From assembly GCA_900315545.1 (NCBI GenBank), contig OMZM01000023.1, positions 1 to 43,140 of the forward strand: 43,140 nucleotides of DNA, read 5' to 3'. The stretch's first letter is position 1. Each line of letters opens with the position of its first letter. The position numbers and the translations under genes are program-made. Below, piece after piece: positions 10,906 to 39,978 of this stretch. The notes beneath the pieces are model-generated. The model was not told the DNA's origin, did no database searches, and worked only from the letters and a program-made list of their open reading frames with translations. This stretch comes from an uncultured Prevotella sp. (GTDB lineage: Bacteria; Bacteroidota; Bacteroidia; Bacteroidales; Bacteroidaceae).

Positions 10906-12732
10906 ATGAGCGACATTATACAGCTATTACCCGATGCAGTAGCCAACCAGATAGCAGCAGGTGAGGTTATACAGCGCCCGGCGTCGGTAATAAAGGAACT
11001 CGTTGAAAATGCCGTAGACGCTGGTGCGAAAACAATAAACGTGCTTGTTGTGGATGCCGGACGCACATCGATACAGGTTATTGATGATGGTTGCGGCATG
11101 TCTGACACCGATGCGCGACTGTCGTTTGAACGACATGCTACGTCGAAGATACGCAAGGCAGAAGACCTTTTCTCACTTCACACTATGGGATTCAGGGGCG
11201 AGGCGTTGGCGTCAATCGCTGCTGTGGCGCAGGTGGAACTGAAAACAAGACAGGCTAACAGCGATTTGGGTGTGGCAATATCTATTTCTGGCTCGCGAAT
11301 TACTGGGCAGGAACCAACAGCATGTCCTGTTGGAAGCAACTTCACAATAAAGAATCTGTTTTATAATGTTCCTGTACGACGAAAGTTTTTGAAGTCGAAT
11401 GCTACGGAATTGAACAACATACTGGCTGCCTTTGAGAGAATAGCACTGGTATATCCAAACATACATTTCACATTTCACAGCAACGGTACGGAACTATATA
11501 ATCTGCGACCGACAGTCCAGAAACAGAGAATAGTAGACATATTCGGCAAGCGTATGAGTCAGGACCTGCTGTCGGTTGACGCAGATACGGCAATATGCAA
11601 GATAACGGGCTTTGTCGGCAAGCCGGAGAGCGCTAAGAAAAAAGGTGCGCAGCAGTTCTTCTTCGTAAACGGCAGATTTATGAAGCATCCATACTTCCAT
11701 AAGGCTGTGCAGACTGCATTCGACAGACTGATACCAACGGGGGAACAAGTACCTTATTTTATTTATATGGAAGTGGATGCGGAGAATATTGATGTTAATA
11801 TACATCCCGTCAAAACCGAGATAAAGTTTGAGAACGAACAGGCAATATGGCAGATATTGGCTGCTGTCGTAAAGGAAGCCGTTGGCAGGTATCATGAAGT
11901 GCCGTCGATAGAATTCGACACGGTAGGTCGTCCTGATATCCCTGCTTACAATAAACAGCACAATGACAATCCGATGATGCCGCGCATATCGGTAGATGGT
12001 CAGTATAATCCCTTTACTGAAGGCAACAGAAAGAACACAGCTGTTCAGAAAGACTGGGAGCAGTTGTATGAGAATATTCAGCCGCATGGCATCGGTAGTC
12101 AGGAAACTACGCTTTTCGACTTCGAGAACGAGTCTCGGGACACTGAAGATATTTCTGTGGAAGACAAGTCGCCGATGCACTATCAGTATAAGGGACAGTA
12201 TATAATGACTGTCGTGAAGTCCGGACTGATGATAATAGACCAGCACCGTGCACATATACGCATTCTGTATGAAGAATATATTGCCCGCATGAACAGGCAC
12301 AAGCCTAATGTTCAGAAGGTTTTGTTTCCGGAAATCGTACAGTTCAGTGCTTCTGAAGAAACTATATTGCAGCTTCTGATGCCGAGTCTGACGGATATGG
12401 GCTTCGACCTTACTGACTTGGGTGGTTGCTCCTATGCTGTAAACGGAATACCTGACGGACTGGATGGCTTGAATATCACAACTGTGCTGCATGATATCAT
12501 AGAGACCGCTGCCGAGCATGATGGCAAGACGTCAGCAGACATGGCGTCGCCGTTGGCAATCAGTCTGGCTCAGCATGCTGCCATTCCGTATGGACAGGTG
12601 TTGTCTAATGAGGAGATGGAGAATATTGTCGACCGCCTGTTTGCTTGTTTCGACATAAAAAGAACGCCCGATGGTCACACTGTGTTGGCTATATTGCCGC
12701 AGAATGACATCGAGCGTATGTTTGGTAGTTAG
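10906..12732 (+). CDS. mutL: DNA mismatch repair protein MutL
   Basis: 608 residues. The N-terminal GHKL ATPase is intact: IAAGEVIQRPASVIKELVEN, ENAVDAGA, DDGCGM and GFRGEALASI. The middle transducer domain contains FFVNGRFMKHPYFHKAV and the conserved VDVNIHPxKxE-type stretch (ENIDVNIHPVKTEIKF). A weakly conserved linker (about 345-425) precedes the C-terminal dimerisation domain. The endonuclease motif DQHA(x)2E(x)4E is altered to DQHRAHIRILYE starting at D445, and the zinc-site cysteines of nuclease-type MutL are absent near the end (AQHAAIPYGQ, KRTPDGHTV). MutL couples MutS mismatch recognition to strand removal. It ends four bases from the convergent trpS stop, with no terminator between. 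Confidence 0.96.
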   Translation: MSDIIQLLPDAVANQIAAGEVIQRPASVIKELVENAVDAGAKTINVLVVDAGRTSIQVIDDGCGMSDTDARLSFERHATSKIRKAEDLFSLHTMGFRGEALASIAAVAQVELKTRQANSDLGVAISISGSRITGQEPTACPVGSNFTIKNLFYNVPVRRKFLKSNATELNNILAAFERIALVYPNIHFTFHSNGTELYNLRPTVQKQRIVDIFGKRMSQDLLSVDADTAICKITGFVGKPESAKKKGAQQFFFVNGRFMKHPYFHKAVQTAFDRLIPTGEQVPYFIYMEVDAENIDVNIHPVKTEIKFENEQAIWQILAAVVKEAVGRYHEVPSIEFDTVGRPDIPAYNKQHNDNPMMPRISVDGQYNPFTEGNRKNTAVQKDWEQLYENIQPHGIGSQETTLFDFENESRDTEDISVEDKSPMHYQYKGQYIMTVVKSGLMIIDQHRAHIRILYEEYIARMNRHKPNVQKVLFPEIVQFSASEETILQLLMPSLTDMGFDLTDLGGCSYAVNGIPDGLDGLNITTVLHDIIETAAEHDGKTSADMASPLAISLAQHAAIPYGQVLSNEEMENIVDRLFACFDIKRTPDGHTVLAILPQNDIERMFGS

Positions 12733-12736
12733 ATAA

Positions 12737-13726
12737 TTATCCAACTCTGAATCCTATCGTTTTTCTCACTTCGCGCAGGGTTGCCGTTGCGCTCTCGCGT
12801 GCTTTTTCTGCCCCTTCGCGGGCAATCTTGTCCAGCAGTTCGGTGTTGGCTGAGTATTCGTCTATGCGTTCGCGTATAGGCGATATCACTTTCACGAGGT
12901 CGGCAGCTATCTGTTTTTTCAAGTCTCCATACCTGAGAGTGCAGTTGTTCCACTGTTCGTCGAAATAGTCGTATGTTTCCTTTGTGGAACAAATTTTCAG
13001 GAAAGTAAACAGGTTTTCTATCACTTCCGGTCGTTGGCTGTTCATTTCCTGCGGTCCCATGTCGGTTACTGCTCGCATGACCTTCTTTGTTATCGTCTTG
13101 TCATCGTCGCGCAGGTATATGCAGTTGCCTTCGCTCTTTCCCATCTTGCCGCTGCCGTCGAGTCCCGGCACTTTCACAGCCTGTGAGTTGAAGTAGAAGT
13201 TCTGTGGCTCTGGAAACAGTTCCACGCCGTAGATATGGTTGAAGCGCCGTGCACATTTGCGAGCCATCTCCATGTTTTGCTCCTGGTCTTTGCCTACCGG
13301 AACCTTTGTCGCACGGTGCTGAAGAATGTCGGCAGCCATCAGTGTGGGGTAGGTGAACAGTCCTGCGTTGACGTTGTCGGGCTGCTGGCGTGCTTTCTCC
13401 TTGAACGTCGTAACGCGTCCAAGCTCGCCTATATACATGTTCATGTTGAAAAACAAATACAACTCCAGCGTTTCCTTTACGTCGCTTTGCACATATATGG
13501 GTGCCTTTGCCGGGTCGAGCCCGCAGGCAAGATATTCTGCAAGTATTGTGCGTGCACTCTGTTGTATGTCGCCCGGTTTCGGATGAGTTGTCAGACTGTG
13601 CCAGTCGGCTATAAAGAACAGACAATCATACTCATCTTGCATCTTCACGAAACTCTTTACCGCACCGAAATAGTTGCCCAAGTGCAGGTTGCCCGTCGGA
13701 CGGATACCGCTAACTACTTTTTCCAT
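12737..13726 (-). CDS. trpS: Tryptophanyl-tRNA synthetase
   Basis: Charges tRNA-Trp with tryptophan. 329 residues, the usual length for the bacterial class I enzyme. The HIGH-type motif is NLHLGNYFGA near the N-terminus (SGIRPTGNLHLGN), and the KMSKS loop is KMGKSEGN (about residues 197-204). It ends in KTIGFRVG. Transcribed leftward from a Bacteroidota-type promoter (-7 at 13776-13783). A sigma-54-like promoter at the end of repeat element copy 1 also points at it from about 210 bases upstream. It converges with mutL. Confidence 0.96.
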   Translation of the reverse strand: MEKVVSGIRPTGNLHLGNYFGAVKSFVKMQDEYDCLFFIADWHSLTTHPKPGDIQQSARTILAEYLACGLDPAKAPIYVQSDVKETLELYLFFNMNMYIGELGRVTTFKEKARQQPDNVNAGLFTYPTLMAADILQHRATKVPVGKDQEQNMEMARKCARRFNHIYGVELFPEPQNFYFNSQAVKVPGLDGSGKMGKSEGNCIYLRDDDKTITKKVMRAVTDMGPQEMNSQRPEVIENLFTFLKICSTKETYDYFDEQWNNCTLRYGDLKKQIAADLVKVISPIRERIDEYSANTELLDKIAREGAEKARESATATLREVRKTIGFRVG

Positions 13727-13933: not shown

Positions 13934-13949
13934 TGCAAAAACCGTGCCA
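13934..13949 (-). promoter_or_regulatory. Sigma-54-like -24/-12 promoter, end of element copy 1
   Basis: On the minus strand the bases read TGGCAC-GGTTT-TTGCA, a full match to the -24 GG and -12 GC pairs at the required 10-base separation. It lies 139 bp from the sixth palindrome of the array and points toward trpS. Confidence 0.6.
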
Positions 13950-14386
13950 AAGTGAACAAGGCTTCGCCTCCGGCGGTGGAAAATATGAAAATTTTTGACA
14001 GGGAAAAAGTCTCCAAATAGATGCGGAACAGTCGTTGAAATTGTGAAAATATGTAAAAATCCGAGTCGGCAACAACTGTTAAAATTGTCAAAGACCATCT
14101 TTGAGGCACCTGTTTCGACTATTTTGCCCTGCAAAACATAGTGCCCGACCCTCCCAAACACTATGTCTGACCTCCTCAAACACACTGTTTGACAATCTCA
14201 AACATGCTCTTTGACATTTTTAACATATACAATTCGTGCACAAAACACAAATACTTCGCGTTAACAAACTGACATCCAGATAATTACAGATGCATGCGAA
14301 TTTTGGGCATATTTTGCCCCTCAGATTTCCGAAACGACTTTCGAGGGCACTCACGCGACAGTAAAACAGCCCAAAATTGATTAGCT
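13934..14386 (-). repeat. Intergenic element copy 1: six 22-bp-phased palindromes plus promoter core
   Basis: A 453-bp element read on the minus strand. It begins AGCTAATCAA (14386 leftward), passes a conserved block with GTCGCGTGAGTGCCCTCG, and then has the palindrome array. In this orientation the units are 14214-14198, 14192-14176, 14170-14154, 14148-14132, 14126-14110 and 14104-14088. Each is 17 bp with 5-bp spacers, flanked by TTAAAAATG- and -CAATTTTAA. After a moderately conserved stretch containing GTCAAAAATTTTC it ends at the sigma-54-like promoter. Outside the element, the flanks (trpS on one side, tRNA-Val on the other) share nothing with the flanks of the other copies. Confidence 0.85.
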
Positions 14387-22503: not shown

Positions 22504-22954
22504 AGCTAATCAAATATCGCTATTTTACTGTCGCGTGAGTGCCCTCGAAAGTCGTTTCTGAAATCAAAGGGGCAAAATACGCGAGTATTTTGCGTGCAAT
22601 TATAAACGCCAGACAGTCAGGACGTTAGCGCGAAACACAAGCCTTATGTGCAAGAAATACATATGTTAAAATTGTCAAAGAGCATGTTTGACATTGTCAA
22701 ACACACTGTTTGAGACAGTGAAACATAGTGTTTGGTAGTGTCGGGCACAATGTTTTGCATGGCAAAATAGTCGAAACAGGTGCCTCAAAGATACTCTTTG
22801 ACAATTTTAACAATTATGTCTGGCCGGATTATTAACAAATCTTTGCACTTTCAACGCCAGTTCCGCATCTATTTTGCGACTTTTTCTCTGTCAAAATTTT
22901 TCAGAAAAAATCGTCCCGAAAGAAAAACCATATAAGTTTGGCACACTTTTTGCT
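22504..22954 (+). repeat. Intergenic element copy 2: six 22-bp-phased palindromes plus promoter core
   Basis: A 451-bp element. It starts AGCTAATCAA, then the conserved block GTCGCGTGAGTGCCCTCG and GAAAGTCGTTTCTGAAATC. The array units are 22675-22691, 22697-22713, 22719-22735, 22741-22757, 22763-22779 and 22785-22801, with arms TTAAAATTG (22666-22674) and CAATTTTAA (22802-22810). Unit 1 is TCAAAGAGCATGTTTGA, and units 2, 3 and 6 follow the same TCAAA-N7-TTTGA plan. Unit 4 is degenerate and unit 5 is not palindromic. It ends at the sigma-54-like promoter facing the restriction-modification genes. Confidence 0.87.
22939..22954 (+). promoter_or_regulatory. Sigma-54-like -24/-12 promoter, end of element copy 2
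   Basis: TGGCAC-ACTTT-TTGCT: GG and GC are 10 bases apart, as sigma-54 requires. It lies 138 bp after the sixth palindrome and about 256 bases before the methyltransferase start. Confidence 0.6.
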
Positions 22955-23210: not shown

Positions 23211-24554
23211 ATGACAAGAGAAAAAGATAAATATAGTTTAAGTCTTGAAGCCTTCCCTGAGGAAATAACCGAGGACGGTACCAAGATTTATGGTGAGACA
23301 TCATATGAGAACCAAATGGCAGTATTGAGCCAATTCTTGCATAGTGGTGGAATTGGCGGAAACGGTTTGGAATCTCGAGCCAAACGTGAAGTTATCGTGC
23401 AGGCTATTCAAGATTTTTTGGATAGTAAGAAGGCTGTAAAAGAGATTGATGATTATGAAGAATATGCATGGTGTGTGGCTGAAAACCCATTGGAATATTC
23501 GCTCTTTGCAGACTTCTTTAATGTTCCTTTCCCAGACCCACAGCCCTCACTTTTTACTTTTATCGACCTTTTTGCGGGAATGGGCGGTTTCCGCTTGGCA
23601 ATGCAAGCGCAAGGTGGTAAATGTGTTTTTTCATCGGAATGGAACAAATACGCCCAGAAGACTTACTTTGCCAATTTTGGTGAAATGCCCTTTGGAGATA
23701 TAACTAAGGAATCTACCAAAGGATATATTCCAAAGCATTTTGACATATTATGCGCAGGTTTCCCCTGTCAGCCATTTTCAATCGCTGGTGTGTCAAAGAA
23801 AAAAAGCCTCGGACGTGAGACGGGATTCAAGGACAAAACACAAGGAACGCTTTTTTTCGATGTGGCTGACATCATTAGTCGTCATCGTCCAAAGGCTTTC
23901 TATCTTGAAAATGTGAAGAATCTGGTTTCACACGACAAGGGTAACACCTTCCGGATAATATGCGAAACATTGGAAGAGTTAAATTACTCTATACATTACC
24001 AAGTGATGGATGGTCAGACATACGTTCCTCAGCATAGAGAACGTATTATGATTGTCGGCTTCGATAGAGAACGATACCATGGCAAGGAATGCTTCAACTT
24101 CCCAGAACAGCACAAGTCCACTAGAACTATCCGTGAAATCCTTGACCCAAATATAGACTCGAAATATACTCTGAGTGACAAGTTATGGAATTATCTGCAA
24201 GCATATGCTGAGAAACATAAGTCCAAAGGTAATGGCTTTGGTTTTGGTCTCGTAGACCTTGATGGAATCAGTCGAACACTCAGTGCGCGTTATTATAAAG
24301 ACGGCTCAGAAATTCTTATCCCCCAAGGAGAAGGAATCAATCCCCGTAAATTGTCGCCACGTGAGTGTGCTCGGCTGATGGGTTACCCAGACAATTACCG
24401 TCTTGACCAAGTTTCAGATGTCCAAGCATATCGCCAGTGTGGAAACTCTGTTATAGTACCTCTTGTCACTGCAGTCTCCGAACAAATTATCCAAACAATC
24501 AACGACTATGAGCGAAATATTGAACTCCGCAATCCGCAGCGTGCAGCAATCTAA
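23211..24554 (+). CDS. DNA (cytosine-5) methyltransferase of a type II restriction-modification system
   Basis: 447 residues. Motif order is that of C5-methyltransferases: I TFIDLFAGMGGFRLAM (about residue 118), IV GFPCQPFS with catalytic C186, VI ENVKNL, VIII QHRERIMIVGF, IX-X CARLMGYPDNY and QCGNSVIVPLV. A 115-residue N-terminal extension precedes motif I, as in Dcm/M.EcoRII-type enzymes. It protects host sites from the nuclease encoded by the next gene, whose start lies inside this one (47-base overlap). Given that nuclease's family, the target is probably CCWGG or CCNGG (inference). The coding sequence is more AT-rich than neighbouring housekeeping genes, a sign of transfer. Confidence 0.93.
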   Translation: MTREKDKYSLSLEAFPEEITEDGTKIYGETSYENQMAVLSQFLHSGGIGGNGLESRAKREVIVQAIQDFLDSKKAVKEIDDYEEYAWCVAENPLEYSLFADFFNVPFPDPQPSLFTFIDLFAGMGGFRLAMQAQGGKCVFSSEWNKYAQKTYFANFGEMPFGDITKESTKGYIPKHFDILCAGFPCQPFSIAGVSKKKSLGRETGFKDKTQGTLFFDVADIISRHRPKAFYLENVKNLVSHDKGNTFRIICETLEELNYSIHYQVMDGQTYVPQHRERIMIVGFDRERYHGKECFNFPEQHKSTRTIREILDPNIDSKYTLSDKLWNYLQAYAEKHKSKGNGFGFGLVDLDGISRTLSARYYKDGSEILIPQGEGINPRKLSPRECARLMGYPDNYRLDQVSDVQAYRQCGNSVIVPLVTAVSEQIIQTINDYERNIELRNPQRAAI

Positions 24555-25704
24555 AGCAGCATGGTGTCGTTTCATCACTGGAAATGACACGGGTAAGACA
24601 GGTAGCCATCAGGCAGGTTTCTATATCCCAAAGTGTGCATCGACTCTGCTATTTGATAAGCCAGGGCATAAAGGGGAATTCAAAGAAAAAACCGTAAAAG
24701 TTAAGTGGCAGGATGACTTTATAACTGAGAGTTGCATGAAATACTATGGTCAAAAGACGCGTAATGAATATAGAATTACTCGTTTTGGACATGGATTTCC
24801 TTTCTTACAGGATGATAATGTTGGAGACTTGCTTATACTTGCTAAATTCACAGAAGAAGATTATGCAGGTTACATTCTCAGTAGAGACGAAGATATTGAC
24901 GCATTTTTTGCATTTTTTAATCTTGCTACAGGTGTAACCAATCAACTTATCAATGTAGATGGGAACGTGAAAGCCAATGTCAAGATAGACCAACTGTTGA
25001 AAGAATTTTCCGACCGTTTTACGTATTTCCCAGAAACAAGAATAATGGCTGCTGGAGCGCAAGAATGTTATAATAAGGCATATAGGGTAAACGATGGTAT
25101 GTTGCAGAAAATGCCAGATAAGATATTGTCTGATTGGATTGATACGGAAACGGCTCTCTTCAAATGCATGGAAGAAAAAGTATATGCAGACATGCTGACA
25201 CAACGTTTTGATAGTGTTGAGGCTTTCACAGAAAAAGCGAACCAAGTTCTGAACCGTCGCAAGTCTCGTGCAGGCAAATCTTTAGAACATCATCTCTCAA
25301 CTATTTTTACAAGGAACGGTCTGATATTCGAAGAACAAGCTGTAACAGAGGACAATAAGAAACCCGATTTCCTATTCCCAAACGCAGAGTGCTATCATAA
25401 CTTCCAATTTCCAGCCGAAGAATTGACAATGCTTGGTGCCAAAACGACATGTAAAGACAGGTGGCGTCAGGTTATCAATGAAGCTGACCGAATTGAGATA
25501 AAGCACTTGTTTACATTGCAACCTGGAATATCCAAGAATCAGTTAAAGGAAATGTCCGATAATGGAGTGAAACTTGTTGTGCCACAAAAGAATATTTCAA
25601 CATTTCCTATTGAATATCAATCTTCGCTAAGTAATTTGACGGAATTTATACATATGGTTAGAAATAAGCAGGATAGTCTTCCGAAATACTATAATTTGAT
25701 TTAG
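24508..25704 (+). CDS. EcoRII-like type II restriction endonuclease
   Basis: Taking the ATG at 24508 gives 398 residues, close to EcoRII (about 404). The C-terminal half carries the EcoRII/PspGI-type catalytic block: KPDFLFPNAECY with D287 and Y296, then LGAKTTCKDRWRQVINE with K312, K316, R318 and E325, then HLFTLQPGIS. From memory, the spacings match EcoRII residues D299, Y308, K324, K328, R330 and E337 with a constant offset of 12. The N-terminal half (AAWCRFITGNDTGKTGSHQAGFYIP) matches the B3-like EcoRII effector-binding domain, suggesting activation by a second site. Overlap with the methyltransferase implies coupled expression. Confidence 0.9.
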   Translation: MSEILNSAIRSVQQSKAAWCRFITGNDTGKTGSHQAGFYIPKCASTLLFDKPGHKGEFKEKTVKVKWQDDFITESCMKYYGQKTRNEYRITRFGHGFPFLQDDNVGDLLILAKFTEEDYAGYILSRDEDIDAFFAFFNLATGVTNQLINVDGNVKANVKIDQLLKEFSDRFTYFPETRIMAAGAQECYNKAYRVNDGMLQKMPDKILSDWIDTETALFKCMEEKVYADMLTQRFDSVEAFTEKANQVLNRRKSRAGKSLEHHLSTIFTRNGLIFEEQAVTEDNKKPDFLFPNAECYHNFQFPAEELTMLGAKTTCKDRWRQVINEADRIEIKHLFTLQPGISKNQLKEMSDNGVKLVVPQKNISTFPIEYQSSLSNLTEFIHMVRNKQDSLPKYYNLI

Positions 25705-39464: not shown

Positions 39465-39522
39465 TTCCCGTTATCGTTCCCATTCCCGTTCCCGTTATCG
39501 TTCCCGTTAAGGTTAAGGTTAG
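39465..39522 (+). repeat. Hexanucleotide tandem array (TTCCCG/TTATCG/TTAAGG)
   Basis: Nine full hexamers and a partial one in perfect register: TTCCCG, TTATCG, TTCCCA, TTCCCG, TTCCCG, TTATCG, TTCCCG, TTAAGG, TTAAGG, TTAG. It ends six bases before element copy 3. Related to the inverted short array at 877-906. Confidence 0.75.
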
Positions 39523-39527
39523 AAAAC

Positions 39528-39978
39528 GTCTAATCAATTTTCGCCTGTTTACAGTCGCGTGAATGCCCGCGAAAGTCGTTTCTGAAATCTCAGGGGCAAA
39601 ATACGCCCAAAATCTGCGTATGGCTGTAATCGTCTGACAGTCAGGTTGTTATCACAAAATAAAGGCGTTCTGCGCAAGAAATACAAGTGTTAAAATTGTC
39701 AAAGAGCATGTTTGACATTGTCAAACACACTGTTTGAGGAGGTCAGACATAGTGTTTGGGACTATCGGACGCTGTGTCTGACATGGCAAAACAGACGAAA
39801 TAGCCGTCTCAAACATACTCTTTGACAATTTTAACAGTTATCACCGACTCGAAATTTTACATATTTTCACACTTTCAGACACAATATAATTTCTATTTTG
39901 CAACTTTTCTCCTGTCAAAAATTTTCATACATTTTCGTGCCGAAAGAAAATTCTGACAACTTTGGCACAGTTTTTGTA
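39528..39978 (+). repeat. Intergenic element copy 3: six 22-bp-phased palindromes plus promoter core
   Basis: 451 bp, the same length as copy 2. It starts GTCTAATCAA, with the conserved block GTCGCGTGAATGCCCGCG and GAAAGTCGTTTCTGAAATC. Units are 39699-39715, 39721-39737, 39743-39759, 39765-39781, 39787-39803 and 39809-39825; arms TTAAAATTG (39690-39698) and CAATTTTAA (39826-39834). Unit 4 here is TCGGACGCTGTGTCTGA, better paired than in copies 1 and 2, so symmetry is kept while bases change. It ends at a sigma-54-like promoter facing the YhcG nuclease. Confidence 0.87.
39963..39978 (+). promoter_or_regulatory. Sigma-54-like -24/-12 promoter, end of element copy 3
   Basis: TGGCAC-AGTTT-TTGTA, with GG at -24 and GT instead of GC at -12. 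138 bp after the sixth palindrome. Confidence 0.5.

Follow-up and report, generated by a model that had tools for sequence, protein, structure and literature searches.

Three intergenic regions of a 43,140-bp stretch of DNA from an uncultured rumen Prevotella sp. (hereafter the window, meaning the whole stretch that was analysed) each contain a row of six 17-bp units built on TCAAA-N7-TTTGA and repeated every 22 bp. This raises the question of what such an array is, and whether it is kept for its sequence or for its phase. The first-pass annotation of the window had described three six-unit arrays, bounded by matching arms and containing a fifth unit that departs from the palindrome. Direct reading located all three of them (Table 1). 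The arms TTAAAATTG/CAATTTTAA stand at both sides of the array (in the minus-strand copy A the left arm is TTAAAAATG) and unit 5 is a non-palindromic, AAA-rich unit.

Table 1. Copies of the repeated element in the window, their parts and the neighbouring synthetase gene
Feature	Position	Strand	Basis or remark
Element copy A, 450 bp	13935..14384	-	nhmmer E 6.1e-134; upstream of class I tRNA synthetase gene
Copy A, array	14079-14223	-	
Copy A, six units	14088..14214 (unit 1 14198-14214, unit 6 14088-14104)	-	
Copy A, predicted sigma54-type end TTTGGCACGGTTTTTGC	13935..13951	-	
Class I tRNA synthetase gene (TrpRS-like)	12737-13726	-	next to copy A
Element copy B, 448 bp	22506..22953	+	nhmmer E 8e-137 against a 30-copy profile; sharp ends in copy alignment
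Copy B, head	22506-22665	+	
Copy B, array	22666-22810	+	
Copy B, tail	22811-22953	+	
Copy B, six 17-bp units at 22-bp period	22675..22801 (starts 22675, 22697, 22719, 22741, 22763, 22785)	+	direct reading
Copy B, 3' end with predicted sigma54-type -24/-12 signature TTTGGCACACTTTTTGC, outward-reading	22937..22953	+	134 sites of this kind genome-wide, control 0
Element copy C, 448 bp	39530..39977	+	nhmmer E 9.7e-138; upstream of YhcG-type gene (Pfam)
Copy C, array	39690-39834	+	
Copy C, six units	39699..39825	+	
Copy C, predicted sigma54-type end TTTGGCACAGTTTTTGT	39961..39977	+	

Copy number and anatomy of the element in the source genome

The array is the middle of a conserved, non-coding, intergenic element of approximately 448 bp. 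In the alignment of copies the element has a sharp start (CTAATCAATTTT..) and, about 448 bp further, a sharp end (..TTTGGCACNNTTTTTGC), with little in common outside. The conserved blocks are the 5' end, a segment around positions 21-60, the array units with the outer arms, the tail motif TGTCAAA and the 3' end, and less conserved stretches separate them. Copies sit between called ORFs, although the calls are mechanical and some short ORFs overlap copies. Within the window only a tRNA matched Rfam at the gathering score, and the element found no match in plasmid and phage records. Eighteen IMG/VR contigs matched one array-end pattern, none of which carries the element by nhmmer.

The three copies that had been annotated are a small part of a much larger set. 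In the source genome (2.29 Mb, 92% complete) the 3' end signature TTTGGCACNNTTTTTGC is present, with at most one mismatch, at 134 places and the reversed pattern at none, so the arrays are not limited to three recent duplicates. The signature does not always mark a full copy, since among 30 loci read one (L034) lacked an array upstream and two (L039 and L044) were cut by a contig end. A DNA search of the same genome gave 166 first-look candidates, and all 40 that were scored proved to be copies; numerous contigs terminate within the element, which is usual for repeats in assemblies. Pairs of neighbouring TCAAA-N7-TTTGA units in 22-bp phase (two mismatches or fewer) occur at 275 places, with 0 in the reversed control.

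One hundred distinct copies bearing the right end were collected, matches lacking that end being excluded. Six units at 22 bp were found in 87 of them, with a span from unit 1 to unit 6 of 129 bp in 72 copies and 128 bp in 15, and unit numbers and spacings are not random. The other 13 comprise two copies with insertions (L173 and L036), seven of a second type (type II, see below) and four cut by a contig end. The annotated absence of any length deviation therefore holds for the copies in the window but not genome-wide, where 15% of the collected copies are 1 bp shorter and the two insertions occur. In units 2, 3 and 4 the centre is found in both orientations (e.g. CACACTG and CAGTGTG), which means that inversion of a unit leaves the phase intact. 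Diverged subfamily copies are also present in this genome, and in six of ten additional loci that have array units, similarity to the element is lost ahead of the sigma54-type end; two of those six were read, and the array was disrupted in one (L353).

Two features of the surroundings may be added. Immediately downstream of copy B lie genes for a C5 methylase and then an EcoRII-type restriction enzyme (window 23211-25704). Degenerate hexamer tracts of the GTTCCC/GTTATC/GTTAAG type adjoin several element copies in the source genome and in that of a related species, L065, considered below (window 39465-39521; flanks of L180, L191, L196 and L150; L371 downstream of the copy at 11852-12170).

Motif replacement at constant geometry

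In all seven type II copies the units lie at 0/22/44/66/88/110. Units 1-4 (starts 0, 22, 44 and 66) are built on TTACA..TGTAA, some imperfectly, and unit 6 is kept at exactly +110. Identity to the type I consensus is 70-81% in the tail and over the initial 80 bp of the head, and 82-93% in unit 6 with its arm, but falls to only 50-65% in the second half of the head and only 45-55% in units 1-5.

A similar replacement is seen between species. The nearest of 80 loci of relatives by its TrpRS-like protein (94% identity, in a search that may omit near-identical records) is that of the L065 genome, Prevotella sp. RGIG8412. It harbours a homologous dispersed element (nhmmer profile E 2.9e-11 to 1.6e-10), of which stretches totalling 274 kb yielded 21 matching pieces; many of these lie at contig ends, and some may be two halves of a single copy. 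Its array units, e.g. TCAAAGGGCATCTTTCG and CAATATGCCACATATCG, have a motif different from that of the window at the same 22-bp period. Among ten L065 arrays, seven span 88 bp from the first to the last unit (five units), two span 66 bp, which fits four units, and one has no end in reach. The AATCAATTTT block near the 5' end lies on the opposite strand in the L065 element, as if inverted (L299-L301 and L369-L375 compared with the window heads).

The motif is thus replaced at constant geometry both between species and between types I and II within the source genome. This supports the earlier suggestion that selection acts on a constant phase with changing bases, and the pattern recurs in the further genomes described below.

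Distribution of the element and of the 22-bp period

DNA searches for the window element miss diverged homologues, as the L065 case shows, and their counts should be read with this in mind: among 40 relatives including the source genome (up to 16 candidates scored in each) a truncated copy is present in one other, G005; among 399 genomes of the genus, again including the source (two candidates scored in each), six have any match; and among the genomes of 46 named relatives one gave short matches, which led to the L065 element. Short matches were also noted in G145 and G151, those of the latter in apparently coding DNA.

Arrays were also sought irrespective of motif. The first motif-blind search for dyad chains, in 1.327 Mb around the TrpRS-like gene of the 80 named relatives, gave 12 hits against 1 in a Markov control. 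A strict scan (four exactly periodic units, 20 or more of the 24 arm pairs, periods 16 to 45) of the same sequences found nine loci at period 22, the others being at 24 (1), 33 (3) and 45 (1). The fixed period that the annotation had proposed to look for in relatives was thus recovered in this set, whereas 0.8 Mb of sequence (40 stretches from six genus genomes) contained one such locus among others at 16 (1), 33 (3), 41 (6) and 44 (1), and would not by itself single out period 22; at 19 of 24 arm pairs it gave five loci at 22. Of the six period-33 loci, four correspond to 22-bp arrays in half phase and the remaining two to AT-rich DNA, and all six period-41 loci come from a single genome, G016, and are palindromes with long spacers. 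The strict scan misses imperfect arrays, such as those of G016. Looser settings on the named set were not peaked at 22 (a loose chain scan found 6 at 22, 8 at 21 and 12 at 23), nor was a three-unit exact scan, which gave 5 at 22 and 6 at 33, with no peak at unit length 17; a four-unit exact scan favours 22 (3 loci, with 1 each at 20 and 30). Another family, used as a control, had 0 loci at 22 and 1 at 36 in 400 kb, a sample too small to prove absence.

The array motifs of relatives are unrelated to each other (CAAAATAGGCTATTTTA, GTACAAAGCCCATGTAC, CTATCAAGCACAGATAG, GGAAAGCATTGCTTTCC and others), and one genome (L103) has two different ones. An array is also present in the cultivable species Hoylesella saccharolytica (L099). 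G016 has 155+138 pairs of neighbouring TNANNTGAYGCANNTNA units in 22-bp phase (up to three mismatches allowed, control 0); among eight other genomes, seven have no such pair and one (G187) has a single pair. The G016 arrays that were read contain 3-6 units each, and 67 counted arrays, a figure that includes duplicates, all lie clear of ORFs of at least 90 aa. In 200 kb of this genome, neighbouring centres no more than 70 bp apart are separated by 22 bp (16 cases), 44 bp (8), 66 bp (2) or one of five other distances seen once each. The RUG733 genome (L144) contains 124 adjacent GAGCGCTC unit pairs at 22 bp, with a control of 0 and no such pair in seven other genomes. What the genomes compared have in common is therefore the spacing (a 17-bp dyad and a 5-bp spacer, usually in 4-6 units) and not the sequence.

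Arrays of other periods were encountered as well. In G016 (L257 2770-3300 and L259 32-300) 17-bp palindromes recur every 41 bp with a conserved 24-bp spacer, the palindrome varying by block, and L124 has at position 35 a palindrome array of ATACTATTGCTATAGTG units at a 24-bp period. A strand polarity along the G016 chromosome, hinted at among the matches listed, was dismissed, as arrays in the sampled stretches show both orientations.

A proposed multi-operator model of the array

Five of the six sites are dyad-symmetric, and 22 bp is about two helical turns, which would place bound dimers on nearly one face of the DNA. We propose, with moderate confidence, that the array is a multi-operator, i.e. 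six 17-bp sites at 22 bp for dimers of one DNA-binding protein, bound cooperatively, at the core of an interspersed intergenic element. The operators of lambda CI are likewise 17-bp sites, with approximately 23-24 bp between centres. By this analogy, a sequence-specific dimeric protein, presumably of the HTH type, would bind the sites, and neighbouring dimers would contact each other and bind cooperatively as CI does, nucleating a compact nucleoprotein patch between genes. Such a patch could insulate the neighbouring genes, block read-through or tune their transcription. In most copies it would lie ~130 bp upstream of the predicted outward sigma54-type promoter, of which it may be an enhancer or a silencer. 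The binder is a putative dimeric protein, and the non-palindromic unit 5 counts against the model.

It is possible, though we stop short of calling it probable, that Prevotella and its close relatives share a hitherto undescribed chromosome-wide DNA-binding system. It would consist of tens to hundreds of intergenic arrays of ~4-6 dyad sites in 22-bp phase and a rapidly evolving dimeric protein, the whole set of sites being rewritten from species to species, or at times from one subfamily to another of the same genome, with the geometry kept. The conserved feature in the genomes compared is a spacing rule, as unrelated palindromes of different species follow the same phase of 17+5 bp. The model predicts that the recognition code of a dimeric DNA-binding protein changes along with at least 100 sites per genome, and the spacing rule thereby offers a testable handle on the function of such repeats, as well as a motif-free route to such arrays throughout a genus that is important in gut and rumen.

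Pairing of the arms: DNA sites or RNA stems

The annotation had left it between a protein-bound array and an RNA structure. Were the units stems, changes in one arm would be compensated in the other. In G016, 183 units of 42 de-duplicated arrays contain 943 Watson-Crick cells against 963.4 +- 13.1 after shuffling; two of nine positions exceed the shuffled value in the full set (109 vs 100.3 +- 4.4 and 142 vs 134.8 +- 3.1), an excess that vanishes when only the 119 units whose centre is exact are taken (644 vs 651.7 +- 10.0). In the source genome, units 2, 3 and 4 are below shuffled, units 1 and 6 barely vary and unit 5 gives 215 vs 212.9, and for the 35 units of RUG733 one of six pair positions covaries (23 vs 17.7 +- 2.5), the other five being at or below shuffled. 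The kinship of copies weakens all these shuffle tests. The arms thus show no overall covariation in three genomes, which favours dyad half-sites for a dimeric protein over an array of RNA hairpins; independent half-sites around a symmetric consensus are what the sites of a dimeric protein look like.

An array of RNA or single-strand hairpins, similar to REP/BIME, nevertheless has several observations on its side. The fold of a single array as RNA is strong (z -7.9), and in the source genome units 3 and 4 pair mutually above shuffled (1293 vs 1279.8 +- 4.8, 0/300). Units 3, 4 and 6 of that genome have far more G-T than A-C arm mismatches on the plus strand, and the unit centres in both orientations recall hairpin loops, which invert. 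The G-T excess is unexpected under symmetric binding, but shared descent of the copies could produce it, and may likewise be the cause of the strong fold and of the pairing between units 3 and 4; hypermutation of the adenine type was rejected as a cause (A/G 46 vs C/T 32 two-allele columns). The excess is absent from 22 arrays of other genomes (G-T 30 vs A-C 37), no conserved RNA fold was found in the head and tail of the element, and hairpins do not need an exact 22-bp phase. The source genome gave no match to the Y1 transposase (PF01797), a count that is not final at 92% completeness, although the family is present in 22 of 30 genomes searched. Together with the absence of overall covariation, these points make a hairpin array quite improbable. 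Of the two possibilities annotated at first, the protein is favoured, and the RNA retains the fold and the G-T excess.

A predicted sigma54-type promoter at the 3' end

The sigma54 consensus is YTGGCACG-N4-TTGC, with the GG-N10-GC pattern, and the 3' end of the element fits it. The source genome has one clear and one weak match to rpoN, as well as one clear enhancer-binding protein with a Fis-type HTH. Thirteen sigma54-type sites of genus relatives were chosen from a longer list. Eight of them precede htpG (five, assigned by reading, with one confirmed by family search), groES, grpE or thioredoxin genes (one each), and five lie before other or no clear genes. Judged from these sequences, the signature very likely marks a genuine class of promoters in the genus, and the end of the element is a predicted sigma54-type promoter. 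In G009 a second RpoN-like gene was noted ~20 kb from an exact sigma54-type site (C25:17936 and C25:37680), the ORF downstream of which encodes a DUF6717 protein.

The array might accordingly be read as the upstream activating sequence for an enhancer-binding protein, each copy of a mobile promoter putting its neighbour under sigma54 (chaperone-type) control. We consider this improbable. It would account for the end signature with its many sites, for the rpoN and Fis-type genes and for the genes that follow the relatives' sites, and the distance from array to promoter suits an enhancer. The downstream gene is moreover co-oriented with the element in 60 of 97 copies (p 0.025). However, the other 37 face the opposite way, on which account strict promoter delivery was rejected, and when the 400 bp upstream of each of the 13 relatives' sites were examined for perfect 17-bp palindromes of any kind, a single site had one, and its sequence is a different one. 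At seven places where other species have arrays, no sigma54-like site lies within 1.5 kb, and none with up to one mismatch occurs in the four L065 tails that are long enough. To this may be added the six of ten further loci of the source genome where the match stops short of the promoter-like end, and a single conserved activator would not explain species-specific motifs. Copy A, in turn, leaves in place the promoter-like box of the synthetase gene, situated between the copy and the gene (a -7-like box, judged by the consensus), and so is not simply the promoter of that gene.

Possible mobility of the element

The main rival to the multi-operator reading regards the element as a non-autonomous mobile element and the array as the assembly site of a transposase or recombinase acting in trans, the geometry being kept by an enzyme family of diverging specificity. 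Its copy number and sharp ends, the diverged subfamily copies, the dispersed homologue in the nearest species found (L065) and the single truncated copy in G005 are all in agreement with transposition. So is the synthetase locus, where L065 has 124 bp in place of the 705 bp of the window and where the element profile found no match at the corresponding loci of the 80 relatives. Yet a target duplication signal is absent (longest word shared by the flanks, 5.40 vs 5.32 shuffled in 85 copies), no autonomous copy was seen among the copies read, and many G016 arrays have, as judged by eye, no mutually shared flank. The missing Y1 match in the source genome also counts against this reading, as regards the Y1 family only, and mobilisation of the Y1/REP type was rejected on the same ground. 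Terminal inverted repeats are lacking, since the ends CTAATCAA.. and ..TTTTTGC are not inverted repeats of each other. On balance, a transposition core is unlikely.

Comparison with known systems

The multi-operator has its closest geometric counterpart in operator clusters of the lambda type, in which 17-bp dyad sites stand at about two-turn spacing, with few sites at one switch. REP/BIME elements consist of many intergenic palindromic units, also in arrays, as does the element described here, and they go with a Y1 transposase and pairing arms. The element differs from them in its arms without overall covariation and in the lack of a Y1 match in its own, 92% complete genome. The REP/BIME elements meant are those associated with RAYT transposases (PMC2817692).

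The stoperators of mycobacteriophages (PMC9283540) resemble the arrays in that many repressor sites are distributed over a genome but are single asymmetric sites in a phage. Neither these nor the lambda-type clusters form many six-site arrays on a chromosome, and the likeness to lambda is one of geometry only. Searches of a body of literature largely without subscription papers gave no description of a conserved phase combined with a changed recognition sequence.

As an interspersed intergenic repeat the element belongs to a known kind, represented by PINSR and BrickBuilt. PINSR is a 188-bp intergenic repeat of Prevotella intermedia/nigrescens with 177 and 184 copies in two strains (Naito 2015, PMC4755523). 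According to the accessible part of that source, it shares with our element the non-coding and intergenic character, the limitation to a lineage, the lack of terminal inverted repeats, the unknown source and, in a broad sense, the genus; with its 134 end signatures the element, too, exceeds 100 intergenic, non-coding copies. PINSR is shorter, and the same part of the source describes no array, promoter or motif change, the comparison being one of descriptions and not of sequences. The apparent restriction of PINSR and similar repeats to single lineages may be explained in part by the spacing rule.

The element has neither the terminal inverted repeats nor the target duplication that characterise a MITE. 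BrickBuilt, a MITE of Porphyromonas gingivalis with 19 copies in ATCC 33277 (Klein 2015, PMC4596501), is similarly intergenic and composed of a leader, short tandem units and a tail, with reported promoter activity. In the accessible part of that report its units are 23-nt direct repeats of variable number and its ends small inverted repeats, as opposed to the 22-bp period and the ends without inverted repeats found here. The unit consensus printed for BrickBuilt is only weakly palindromic (7 of 9 pairs, at the best of 46 phases).
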